A stretch of 64,000 bases of DNA from Clostridia bacterium (lineage in GTDB: Bacteria > Bacillota > Clostridia > Lutisporales > Lutisporaceae): positions 62,001 through 126,000 of the forward strand of contig DASPIR010000008.1 of assembly GCA_035628995.1 (NCBI GenBank). Reading direction: 5' to 3'. The notes beneath the pieces are model-generated. The model saw nothing but the letters and a program-made list of their open reading frames with translations, made no database searches and had not been told where the DNA came from. A program made the translations under genes and the position numbers. How positions within the stretch are numbered: position 1 is the stretch's first letter; every line of letters begins with the position of its first letter. Positions 42,095 through 45,555 of the stretch are shown here, piece after piece.

Positions 42095-43084
42095 TTAATG
42101 CGGCTGCAGCTCAGCTATATCTCCGACTATTTCGAGGCCACTATTACGTCCTGTACCTTCAAATATAATTTTCCTATTACCGTAAGCGACCTGCCCAAGG
42201 GTAACCTTGATTTCCGATGACATGCTTTCGTCGATGACGTCCTCCATTGAACCGTTGCGTGGTGAATAAAGCTTTCCTGAGTTTGACTCGCGGGTATGTA
42301 TTTCAAGATAAATATGTTTGTCACTGATGCGGATGCGGATGTTGCCCGACTGATGTGAGAGCTGCTCTATCCGTGCCCCGGTGTAGGTAGCAAATCTATA
42401 AAGCTTTCCATTGATTGAAAGGCCCGCAATTAAACCTGTAAAGAACTTGCCAAACCAAGGTATCCGTGCTATTGATGCTGTGAAGAAAACATTGGGGTTT
42501 TCAAAATAGTTAGACTGCATCCAGATCCAGGAGCTTGGGAAGGACCTTCCCCAATCCTTTTCCATATAGCCTCTGCCACCCGTAAAATCCACACTTCTAT
42601 TGTTTATTGCAAGGCTGCCGCTTATATCGTGCTTCATGCTGATTATGCCATGATAGCATTCCATAAAGGGTACAAAGGCGTACCAGCCCATTATGCCCGG
42701 GGAAAAGAGAGAAACTGGCCAAGGGGCTGAATTTTCGAAGTTAAGCCTCCCCTTTAAGCTAAAGCTGTCCGCAGCTAAATCTATATCGACCACTCCAGAA
42801 GAGAAATAATTAGCACCTATCCATAGCCTGAAATTGTCTTTGGAGTAGTGAAAATCATGGATATCATAAGTTTGATAGAGAGATTTGCAGCTTTTCCCAT
42901 CAATGAGCTGGATAAATGAGTGGGGTTTGCTCCCGTCAATTCCGTAGGATACTCCGGGTATAAGTGCATATATACTGTCCTCATCTTTATTAACTATCTT
43001 GAAATACCATCCCTCAAAATACTTTTTAGGGTGCTGCCTTCCTTGGTATACTTCAGGCTTCCAGACTTTCGTGAGCTTTAACAT
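42095..43084 (-). CDS. Tocopherol cyclase-like protein
   Basis: 329 residues. The family signatures are YFEGWYFKIVN near residue 22, HSFIQLIDG, GIMGWYAFVPFMECYHGI, GGRGYMEKDWGRSFPSSWIW (near residues 175-195) and IARIPW. In plants and cyanobacteria the tocopherol cyclase makes the chromanol ring; bacterial homologs in Clostridia have no known substrate. The ribosome site AAAGGA is present, and the TTAAAG after the ATG is normal. It is transcribed in the same direction as MATE, 77 bp upstream, but with no obvious functional link. Confidence 0.75.
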   Translation of the reverse strand: MLKLTKVWKPEVYQGRQHPKKYFEGWYFKIVNKDEDSIYALIPGVSYGIDGSKPHSFIQLIDGKSCKSLYQTYDIHDFHYSKDNFRLWIGANYFSSGVVDIDLAADSFSLKGRLNFENSAPWPVSLFSPGIMGWYAFVPFMECYHGIISMKHDISGSLAINNRSVDFTGGRGYMEKDWGRSFPSSWIWMQSNYFENPNVFFTASIARIPWFGKFFTGLIAGLSINGKLYRFATYTGARIEQLSHQSGNIRIRISDKHIYLEIHTRESNSGKLYSPRNGSMEDVIDESMSSEIKVTLGQVAYGNRKIIFEGTGRNSGLEIVGDIAELQPH

Positions 43085-43263
43085 GCGGTCATATTCCTTT
43101 CATAGTTTTTTTCATTACCTTTAAGTTTTCTATCACCAACGTCCTTTATTCAACACCGCAATTATTAATATTATATTACAATTCATACTCGGCAATTGAC
43201 AGGCATAAACTGGTAATATATAATTTACAAGAAAAGAAGAAAATGGAAAGGGAGGTCGCGAAT

Positions 43264-43341
43264 ATGAGAATCAATAGTGCAATAAAAAGAAACTATAACA
43301 ATTTAATACAGCGGCCTGCTTTATCAGTTTTTGAGGACTGA
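43264..43341 (+). CDS. 25-residue leader peptide before the MFS gene
   Basis: ATG behind GGGAGGT. The peptide begins MRINSAIKRNYNN and ends in ALSVFED. It lies 160 bp before the MFS gene and upstream of a terminator. Antibiotic-inducible pump genes often have this order. Conservation in related genomes would tell if it is a true leader. Confidence 0.45.
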   Translation: MRINSAIKRNYNNLIQRPALSVFED

Positions 43342-43419
43342 TTGACAGTTTTTTTGTGCGGGTCGCTTTGAGAGAGGGGACTCCGTGACAATTTTAAAAC
43401 TAAGGTTTTTCAGTGTTCT

Positions 43420-43459
43420 AAGTCATGGAATATTTATGTTCCATGGCTTTTATTATTTT
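43420..43459 (+). terminator. Terminator in the MFS leader (attenuator candidate)
   Basis: AAGTCATGGAA/TTCCATGGCTT (one G-T pair) with an 8-nt loop, then TTATTATTTT. It lies 43 bp before the MFS start, so it would block expression unless read through. Confidence 0.65.
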
Positions 43460-43502
43460 CTGAGTGATTTATCTGTACTACTTTATGAGGGGGTTTTACA
43501 TC

Positions 43503-44765
43503 ATGTCTAGAATCAAAAATCTGCTAAGTCCTTACATGGGCTTACCCAAGGAAATTTATATCATATTCGCTTCACGAATAGTGAATGCTATGGGCTGCTT
43601 TGTTATGCCGCTGATGACAATAATTATGACTGACAGAATAGGTTTGTCTAAGGAGACTACGGGCTTTTACCTGAGTTTGAACAGCTTGGTTTTTCCGTTG
43701 GCTTCCATGCTTGGAGGAAAGCTTGCAGACTCTTTCGGCAGAAAGGGCCTGATAATAGTGTTTGATACGCTGGCAGCTCTGCTGTATCTATCCTGCGGGT
43801 TTATAGAACCATCTATGTCGCTTATATATGTGATTCTGGCAGCAAGTGCATGCATGAGTGTTGCCGGACCATCACATGATTCCCTAATAGCTGATTTGAC
43901 TACTCCTGAGAATAGAGAGGGCGCATATGCCTTAAGCTATCTGGGCTGGAACATAGGCTTTGCAGTCGGTCCAATGCTGGGAGGCTTTTTATACAGAAGC
44001 TACCTGCCCCTTGTATTCATAGGAGATGCAGCCACTGCCTTGATGTCAATAAGCCTGATATTCTTCTTTGTCAAAGAGACCATAGGCACGACCAGAGAGG
44101 AGATAGCAGACGAAAGCAGAAAGCTTGAAAGAAGAGAAGAAGGCTCGATAATATCAGTACTGCTGAGAAGACCTATGCTAATTTATTTTGCTATTATTGC
44201 CTTCGGGTATAACTTCGCATATTCCCAATGGACCTTCCTGATGCCGATACATTCCATGCAGAACTTTGGCGGCTTTGGTGCCCAGTATTTTGGTTGGATG
44301 GCAAGCTTGAACGGCTTGGTGGTTATACTGTTTACACCTATTCTCACCAAGCTGACTGTAAGAATGAAGGGCATGAGGAAGATGGTCTATGGGATACTGC
44401 TGTATGCCATAGGTTTTGGAATGTTAGGAGTACTCAACACACTGTCTTACTTCTTCCTGTCGGTTTTCATTTTTACTTTGGGAGAGATATTGCTTTCTAT
44501 AAGCGTTATGCCATTTATCGTAAACCATACACCGGCATCCCACAGGGGCAGGATGAATGCTGTGCTGCCTACAATAATGGGCATGGGCTATGCAATCGGG
44601 CCAATGACTATGGGCAGGATACTTAATTACTCAAGTGTGGAAAGCGCATGGCTCATATTGGGAGGACTCACTGCAATATCTGCCGCATTCATGTTCGGCC
44701 TTGAAAAATACGACGATTGGGCCAGCGCTAAAGTGGAAGAGTCAGAAGAAGCAATGGAAGCATAG
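43503..44765 (+). CDS. MFS transporter, multidrug-type
   Basis: About 420 residues, twelve transmembrane helices. The MFS A-motif-like segment between helices 2 and 3 is GGKLADSFGRKGLIIVFDT (G-x3-D-x2-G-R-x2). A central loop (KETIGTTREEIADESRKLER) is basic and acidic mixed. It is probably a drug efflux pump like Lmr/MdtG. ATG 43503 lies behind GAGGGGG; an upstream in-frame TTG has no site. It follows a leader peptide and terminator. Next is a Crp/Fnr regulator. Confidence 0.85.
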   Translation: MSRIKNLLSPYMGLPKEIYIIFASRIVNAMGCFVMPLMTIIMTDRIGLSKETTGFYLSLNSLVFPLASMLGGKLADSFGRKGLIIVFDTLAALLYLSCGFIEPSMSLIYVILAASACMSVAGPSHDSLIADLTTPENREGAYALSYLGWNIGFAVGPMLGGFLYRSYLPLVFIGDAATALMSISLIFFFVKETIGTTREEIADESRKLERREEGSIISVLLRRPMLIYFAIIAFGYNFAYSQWTFLMPIHSMQNFGGFGAQYFGWMASLNGLVVILFTPILTKLTVRMKGMRKMVYGILLYAIGFGMLGVLNTLSYFFLSVFIFTLGEILLSISVMPFIVNHTPASHRGRMNAVLPTIMGMGYAIGPMTMGRILNYSSVESAWLILGGLTAISAAFMFGLEKYDDWASAKVEESEEAMEA

Positions 44766-44856: not shown

Positions 44857-45555
44857 ATGAAAAGGATCACCGATAAGAACCTACTCGAAGCCTATATCGG
44901 GGAATTCGGCTTAGATTCATTGTTCCAAAAGGATATGCGGCCTTTTATGAGCCTTATGAGCTATGAAAGAGGGGAGTGCATCTGCAATACCGGAGATGAG
45001 CTGAATTACTTTTATTTCAATGTAAAAGGCAAGCTCAAGGTATATACGCTGATGGAAAATGGCAAATCCCTGCTTCTTAGGTTCAATAAGCCCTTAAGCA
45101 TACTTGGCGATGTGGAGTTCATGTCAGGCTATAAGATAAAGTGCAATGTTGATTCACTTAATGAATCCCATCTAATTGGGATAAGGTTGGATGACATTCG
45201 CAAATATGCAGCAGACGATCCGGTTTTTCTCAGCTATGTAATTAAGAATCTGGGGTATAAGCTATATACGATATCCAACAGTACCTCAATAAACCTGCTG
45301 TATTCCCTCGAAAAGAGGTTTGCCAGCTATATTATCTCAATCTCAAGTGAAGAAAGCAGCTCCAAGGGTATAAATGAGATAAAGACAACAAGCATGACTG
45401 AGATGGCGACGCTTCTGGGCACAAGCTACAGGCACCTGAATAGGGTCATAAGGGAGCTTGCAGATAAGGGGATAGTAGGAAAAAGGAACGGAAATATATC
45501 TGTGCTGGATTATGCAGCCTTGAAAGAGCTTTCCGGCGGTCTTCTATACGAGTAA
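44857..45555 (+). CDS. Crp/Fnr family regulator (YeiL-like)
   Basis: 232 residues. An N-terminal cyclic nucleotide-binding-like domain (RGECICNTGDELNYFYFNVKG) is followed by a dimer helix and a C-terminal winged HTH (MTEMATLLGTSYRHLNRVIRELADKG). No cysteine set for a Fnr-type [4Fe-4S] cluster is obvious at the N-terminus; Cys53 and Cys55 are near. YeiL-type regulators often adjoin MFS genes, as here. It lies 91 bp after the MFS gene, with its own ribosome site GGGGGA. Confidence 0.85.
   Translation: MKRITDKNLLEAYIGEFGLDSLFQKDMRPFMSLMSYERGECICNTGDELNYFYFNVKGKLKVYTLMENGKSLLLRFNKPLSILGDVEFMSGYKIKCNVDSLNESHLIGIRLDDIRKYAADDPVFLSYVIKNLGYKLYTISNSTSINLLYSLEKRFASYIISISSEESSSKGINEIKTTSMTEMATLLGTSYRHLNRVIRELADKGIVGKRNGNISVLDYAALKELSGGLLYE

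Follow-up and report, generated by a model that had tools for sequence, protein, structure and literature searches.

A probable ribosome-mediated transcription attenuator ahead of an MFS pump gene in a Clostridia bacterium, and related leaders ahead of other genes

Organization of the locus

The window analysed here is a stretch of 64,000 nucleotides from a Clostridia bacterium (assembly GCA_035628995.1, contig DASPIR010000008.1, positions 62,001 to 126,000 of the forward strand), and the features considered lie in and around the upstream region of a gene encoding an MFS transporter (Table 1). When compared with solved structures, the transporter matched only LmrP (E 8e-10), and it reached the cut-off of none of the NCBIfam equivalogs shown. 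LmrP is an exporter of several ribosome drugs. The gene that follows the pump encodes a Crp/Fnr-type regulator, for which the closest NCBIfam model is YeiL with a score under its cut-off, and it may be co-transcribed with the MFS gene.

Table 1. Features of the pump locus (positions within the window)
Feature	Position	Strand	Remarks
Divergent neighbour gene	42095-43084	-	Pfam tocopherol cyclase domain, 89 bits
Promoter TTGACA-17-TATAAT	43196-43224	+	sigma-70-type, consensus match 12/12
Transcription start (predicted)	near 43231	+	predicted from promoter spacing
Leader ORF ribosome site GGGAGG	43250-43255	+	8 nt 5' of ATG
Arm 1, GGAGGTCGC	43251-43259	+	Shine-Dalgarno region of leader ORF; pairs with arm 2
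Leader ORF, 25 codons + TGA	43264-43341	+	peptide MRINSAIKRNYNNLIQRPALSVFED; ORFs at same place in relatives
Arm 2, GCGGCCTGC	43311-43319	+	codons 16-19 of leader ORF; partner arm 1 or arm 3
Arm 3, GCGGGTCGC	43358-43366	+	5' side of hairpin T1; 9 continuous pairs with arm 2
Arm 4, CTCCGTGAC	43381-43389	+	3' side of hairpin T1; partner arm 3 or arm 5
Hairpin T1	built on 43358-43389	+	3' of leader stop codon
Arm 5, GTCATGGAATA	43422-43432	+	5' side of terminator T2; partner arm 4 or arm 6
Arm 6	43439-43447	+	within T2
Terminator T2	43420-43459	+	stem 43420-43449, 13 pairs, then U tract, TTTTATTATT
Shine-Dalgarno of MFS gene, GAGGGGG	43487-43493	+	sequence read directly
MFS transporter gene, 420 aa	43503-44765	+	PF07690, 168 bits
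Crp/Fnr-type regulator gene	44857-45555	+	91 bp past MFS stop codon

A preliminary description of this DNA had reported a 25-codon ORF with a good ribosome site and a U-tailed terminator before the MFS gene, and both are present where it placed them, the MFS start codon lying 43 bp after position 43459. An in-frame ATG at 43243, which sits upstream of the Shine-Dalgarno sequence, is an unlikely start of the leader ORF. T2 cannot serve the divergent neighbour gene, because that gene is on the opposite strand. A terminator scan of 42800-43700 returned one such site against 0.6 +/- 0.8 in shuffles, and the T2 hairpin taken alone is within chance expectation. The leader from 43231 to 43502 (272 nt) folds at -74 kcal/mol against -56.6 +/- 4.3 kcal/mol for dinucleotide shuffles (z -4.0), beating 200 of 200.

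Conservation ahead of orthologous pumps

The MFS protein was compared with genome contigs, which yielded 11 loci, and with 391 genomes of the class, in 19 of which it had 25 matches in all; some loci appear in both sets. Reading of the upstream DNA revealed the same leader anatomy at L006, L007, L012, L014, L015, L021, L022 and L023, where the MFS proteins are 57-72% identical to that of the window. Leader-bearing MFS genes thus number nine with the window counted, to which L137, an independent case from another family, was added by means of an RNA model. The consensus arms in the relatives, each with variants, are GGAGGTCGC (arm 1), GCGACCTGC (arm 2), GCGGGTCGC (arm 3), CCGTGAC (arm 4), GTCATGG (arm 5) and CATGGC-TTTT (arm 6). 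T1 ends in TTTTT in the relatives; its T tract is weak in the window copy (AATTTT) and comprises TTTT or more in most relatives. What lifts the arrangement above chance is the recurrence, ahead of orthologous pumps, of the whole set of promoter, leader ORF, arms and terminator.

In a tree of 33 MFS proteins, all ten leader-bearing ones fall inside a single clade of 17 rows (support 100/100). Five of these 17 orthologues, L008-L011 and L013, have no leader on inspection and no match to the RNA model. Judging from the tree, the leader probably dates back to the origin of the pump clade and was lost in Clostridium. A divergent version of the leader, unmatched by the RNA model, was seen at L024 (48% identity) and was kept out of both the models and the count of leader-bearing MFS genes. 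At L005 (2885-2990), a close orthologue (74%), promoter and T2 are kept and leader ORF and T1 are lost; the RNA model match obtained there was rejected, as it covers only promoter-proximal sequence and T2. Repeat loci (L016-L020, L041, L044-L046), L116, which is nearly identical to L115, and L130, which repeats L074, stand outside the counts.

The same RNA element ahead of other genes

A first RNA model, R1 (119 columns, loops cut out), misaligned the window because it penalised real loops; its use was restricted to the discovery of further leader types, and a covariance model built from 12 seeds, R2, took its place. Over the 391 genomes of the class, 22 matches to R2 had E values no higher than 1e-5, comprising 10 seeds and 12 non-seeds; all 22 were inspected, and 19 are in the window's own family (f1) and three in f46. 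The genes behind them encode MFS transporters (7), EamA transporters (5), ABC exporters (3) and a small protein (7); the small-protein gene is followed by SLFN_AlbA_2 and TPR genes in three cases and by GyrI-like and Peptidase_S66 genes in one. Among the weaker matches inspected in full, some lie ahead of GNAT proteins (G009, G013), of ABC exporters with GGAGGTAGG as arm 1 (contig C24 of the window's own genome, G336, G203) and, at L129 (G013:C225), of a ribosomal-protection-type ABC-F protein (NF000355, 498.8 against a cut-off of 380). The L129 gene is preceded by a seven-codon ORF, MRITVLK, and a terminator.

Of 398 genomes of the phylum, nine were matched by R2 with an E value of at most 0.001. 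Seven loci from this search are in new genomes: four ABC exporters, the MFS orthologue L137 and two with the terminator hairpin only. The latter two, L135 and L136, have no leader and were discarded as false positives, and inspection of L096, L099 and L101 likewise showed no leader. Within the window's genome, E values of 0.001 or better were obtained on C8 (the present locus), C29 and C24, the other three matches having E >3. The leader on C24 (L071, 3730-3875, minus strand) is the third of this genome, with GAGGTAGG/CCTACCTC arms, one visible terminator and an ABC exporter gene behind it.

The small protein, of about 60 aa and with an LYxxLEY motif, belongs to a family found in 14 of the 99 relatives searched, all from the window's own family, and the members tested had no Pfam or NCBIfam match. 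Its gene is preceded by the leader in 14/14 genomes that carry it (loci G000:C29 (L123), L112, L115, L118, L124, L127, L114, L119, L130, L113, L144 and L148-L150). On contig C29 of the window's own genome (L123, 435-3322), genes for an SLFN_AlbA_2 protein with a RecG C-terminal-like domain and for a TPR protein lie behind the small-protein gene, and this operon is likewise found behind the leader in G001, G003, G004, G008, G014 and G016. Between T2 and the small-protein gene, L144 (1430-1463) has another short ORF, M-N/S-x4-GV in form and preceded by a separate Shine-Dalgarno sequence; L148 and L119 have one at the same place, and it is possibly a second leader.

It is plausible, and we propose it tentatively, that one ancestral attenuator cassette was copied ahead of unrelated genes and constitutes a drug-stress regulon of this Bacillota family, with the RNA switch held constant and codons 6-8 of the leader setting the drug sensed. 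If so, the regulon would span MFS, EamA and ABC exporters together with the 60-aa family, and the leader would act as a beacon for unknown resistance genes. A single genome can carry several copies of this recognisable RNA element, each before a different gene of transporter or resistance type. The uncharacterised genes marked by the leader, including the 60-aa family, probably belong to a response to ribosome-targeting compounds.

Mutually exclusive helices and ribosome position

The six arms can be paired in two ways that exclude one another, a terminator state (1:2 + 3:4 + 5:6) and an antiterminator state (2:3 + 4:5). In both alignments used for comparison the loops were cut or padded and the arms were positioned manually, a procedure that favours the structure under test; read with that in mind, the terminator-state helices are paired in 91.5% of cells over 12 hand-segmented leaders (slid controls 31-43%) and in 89.7% over the nine MFS seeds alone, and the antiterminator helices in 83.1% and 86.5%, respectively (slid controls 35-42%). 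Changes on both sides of a pair affect 10 pairs and 25 cells of the terminator state in the 12 leaders, and nine pairs and 16 cells in the nine seeds; on four of five measures none of 500 shuffles of the 12 leaders scored as high, and on the fifth three did. Helix 1:2 is paired in 94% of cells and helix 5:6, which is conserved with compensating changes, in 91% (12 leaders). For the antiterminator, covariation did not rise above shuffles (with 12 leaders, 40 to 206 of 500 shuffles reached the same level; with nine, 60 to 136 of 500), as arms 2 to 5 are nearly invariant in their cores; the antiterminator therefore rests on complementarity and folding.

Folding was computed on the RNA from the 3' edge of the ribosome up to the 5' side of T2, with hand-set arms, on which all the probabilities rest, the output of an automatic hairpin parser having been dropped for poor stem boundaries. 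In the window leader without a ribosome, P(1:2) was 1.0 and both P(2:3) and P(4:5) were 0.00. With the P site at the tested codons between 1 and 11, P(2:3) was 0.89-0.99 and P(4:5) 0.78-0.94; at codon 12 they fell to 0.06 and 0.07, and at the later codons sampled to 0.00. The same gating, defined as 2:3 above 0.3 at some upstream codon and 0 with the ribosome at the stop codon, was obtained in 21/22 leaders, and no switch was predicted by folding for L014. With shuffled downstream RNA, P(2:3) averaged 0.05 instead of 0.72, and P(4:5) 0.04 instead of 0.79. Without a ribosome, 2:3 was already favoured at equilibrium in 11/22 leaders, and an off state of the untranslated leader is predicted for the window, though not for every leader. 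Once completed, T2 wins at equilibrium in every computed state (P 1.0), and antitermination must therefore be kinetic. For vmlR-type systems, it is described in PMC9226507 that the antiterminator forms first and that the decision is kinetic.

Proposed mechanism

Parts, conservation, mutually exclusive pairings and dependence on ribosome position are all computed results, and very probably the element acts on a drug pump gene by ribosome-mediated transcription attenuation. Where translation is unhindered, ribosomes would cover arm 2, with the result that T1 (3:4) and T2 (5:6) form and transcription ends near 43459. If the leader is not translated, its Shine-Dalgarno region would hold arm 2 (1:2) and transcription would end likewise. 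When a drug halts the ribosome within codons 1-11, the ribosome would block 1:2 and leave arm 2 free for 2:3, which would release arm 4; arm 4 could then capture arm 5 before arm 6 is made, no T2 would form, and the pump would be transcribed. We infer termination in the cell and drug-induced readthrough, as well as the identity of the drug and the substrate of the pump.

The preliminary description had envisaged a leader peptide followed by a terminator. Its ORF and terminator hold; what it had missed is that the Shine-Dalgarno region, the end of the ORF, the hairpin at 43358-43389 and the 5' side of T2 are mutually exclusive partners. Its further suggestion of a drug-inducible leader agrees with the comparative and modelled folding evidence, in which the ORF, an antiterminator predicted for early stalls only, and the terminator are all kept ahead of orthologous pumps.

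Leader peptides and candidate trigger

Conservation of the peptide in relatives, which had been put forward as a check on the leader, turned out not to be the mark of this element, since the peptides diverge and the RNA arms are kept. A search of 99 genomes with the 25-aa peptide returned only the self match (E 7.5e-12), three other matches with E 0.16-0.88 being judged chance. A conserved peptide was rejected on substitutions by codon position, which stand at 75:65:71 over nine gapless leader pairs, including the pair L115/L112 that is misaligned without gaps and gives 27:23:23 (48:42:48 for the remainder). The peptides thus diverge freely, with no selection on the whole peptide.

One exception was found. 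Ala occurs within codons 6-8 in 9/10 MFS leaders, exactly at codon 6 in six of them, against 5/21 leaders of other genes (Fisher p 0.0012, in a post hoc test on leaders that are related). When any residue and any three-codon window were allowed, 2/4000 within-peptide shuffles matched this enrichment, and 25/4000 did so with the related trio L021-L023 counted once. In PMC8987054, chloramphenicol and linezolid are described to stall ribosomes best with a penultimate Ala; with Ala at codon 6, the halted ribosome would have codon 7 in its P site, which falls well within the predicted on-window of codons 1-11. Our best guess from these residues is that the trigger would be a phenicol- or oxazolidinone-like drug of the peptidyl-transferase centre. 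On direct reading, the window peptide has no R-L-R, no basic-x-basic triplet and no MRLR macrolide motif.

The main rival to such a trigger is a general sensor of translation stress, in which any early slowing of the ribosome, by several drug classes, cold or (p)ppGpp, would activate the pump, and Ala at codons 6-8 would be due to chance or inheritance. This is conceivable, if on the doubtful side: it accords with the lack of coding constraint on the peptides, with the width of the on-window and with the low frequency of Ala in leaders of other genes, whereas the enrichment of Ala in the MFS leaders and its rarity among shuffles speak against it.

Other explanations of the leader

A ligand-binding riboswitch or T-box, sensing a small molecule or tRNA directly and with the ORF incidental, would also account for a highly structured leader whose terminator has an alternative fold. 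It is very unlikely, given that Rfam 15 contains no family reaching gathering score (best 18.7 bits against 70 in a permissive leader search), that no conserved core was seen outside the arms, and that the switching arm 2 lies inside the leader ORF in 22/22 modelled leaders, with the ORF's own Shine-Dalgarno sequence as its partner. Hardly more credible is a constitutive partial terminator with a spurious ORF that keeps the pump at a low level. One terminator-like hairpin per 900 bp is within chance, and L005 keeps promoter and terminator only; the arms are conserved, however, helices 1:2, 3:4 and 5:6 covary, and the whole element recurs ahead of unrelated genes. Least credible of all is an amino-acid leader of the trp type, in which stalling at hungry codons rather than a drug would drive readthrough: it shares the RNA logic and a switching arm crossed by the ORF, but no run of a single codon is present in the window leader or in the listed peptides of relatives, the peptides differ between orthologues, and the genes behind are of transporter or resistance type and not biosynthetic. 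The attenuator reading, in turn, yields predictions as to which codon, which arm and which drug class are involved.

Comparison with known attenuators

Drug-inducible attenuators known so far have mostly been found one gene at a time. Searches of the open-access literature, subscription papers being outside their scope, returned the erm(K), bmrB, vmlR, tlrB/yxjB, mef and patAB systems and no description of the present element in the titles, abstracts and passages covered, those of PMC6851288, PMC8987054, PMC2965389 and PMC5418344 included.

In common with ermK, bmrB and vmlR, the window has a promoter, a translated-looking leader ORF with a ribosome site and a terminator before the gene, together with an antiterminator that overlaps the terminator and depends, here in silico, on ribosome position. 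The erm(K) gene of Bacillus licheniformis has a leader ORF and is regulated by transcription attenuation with two adjacent intrinsic terminators (PMC4335068, PMC5418344); the window shares the leader ORF and, as proposed, attenuation, with a clear T2 and a T1 whose T tract is weak in this copy. The erm(K) leader, MTHSMRLRFPTLNQ, has the macrolide-arrest motif MRLR (PMC4335068), which the window peptide lacks, and an rRNA methylase gene lies behind it instead of an MFS pump. The bmrB-bmrCD system of Bacillus subtilis, induced by chloramphenicol, erythromycin and lincomycin, resembles the window in having a translated leader, terminator, antiterminator and anti-antiterminator ahead of a multidrug exporter (PMC4191407). 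Its terminator lies inside the 162-nt leader gene, whereas both hairpins of the window are 3' of the stop codon, and arm 1 of the window is the leader's own Shine-Dalgarno sequence.

In vmlR of Bacillus subtilis, a drug-stalled uORF prevents the anti-antiterminator and the antiterminator can form (PMC9226507), as proposed here. That uORF encodes the tripeptide MIN and its Shine-Dalgarno sequence is single-stranded, whereas in the window it pairs, as arm 1, with arm 2; an extra hairpin sequesters the Shine-Dalgarno sequence of vmlR itself, and the gene encodes an ABC-F protein and not an MFS transporter. In the mef(E)/mel system of streptococci, too, an MFS efflux pump is preceded by a transcription attenuator, but with an eight-codon macrolide leader, MTASMRLR, and one terminator (PMC4335068), and Naville and Gautheret mention that a multidrug exporter of lactobacilli has an attenuator before it (PMC2965389). 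The mechanism is of a known kind, and what differs is the two-hairpin domino that starts from the leader's own Shine-Dalgarno sequence, and its reuse ahead of unrelated genes.
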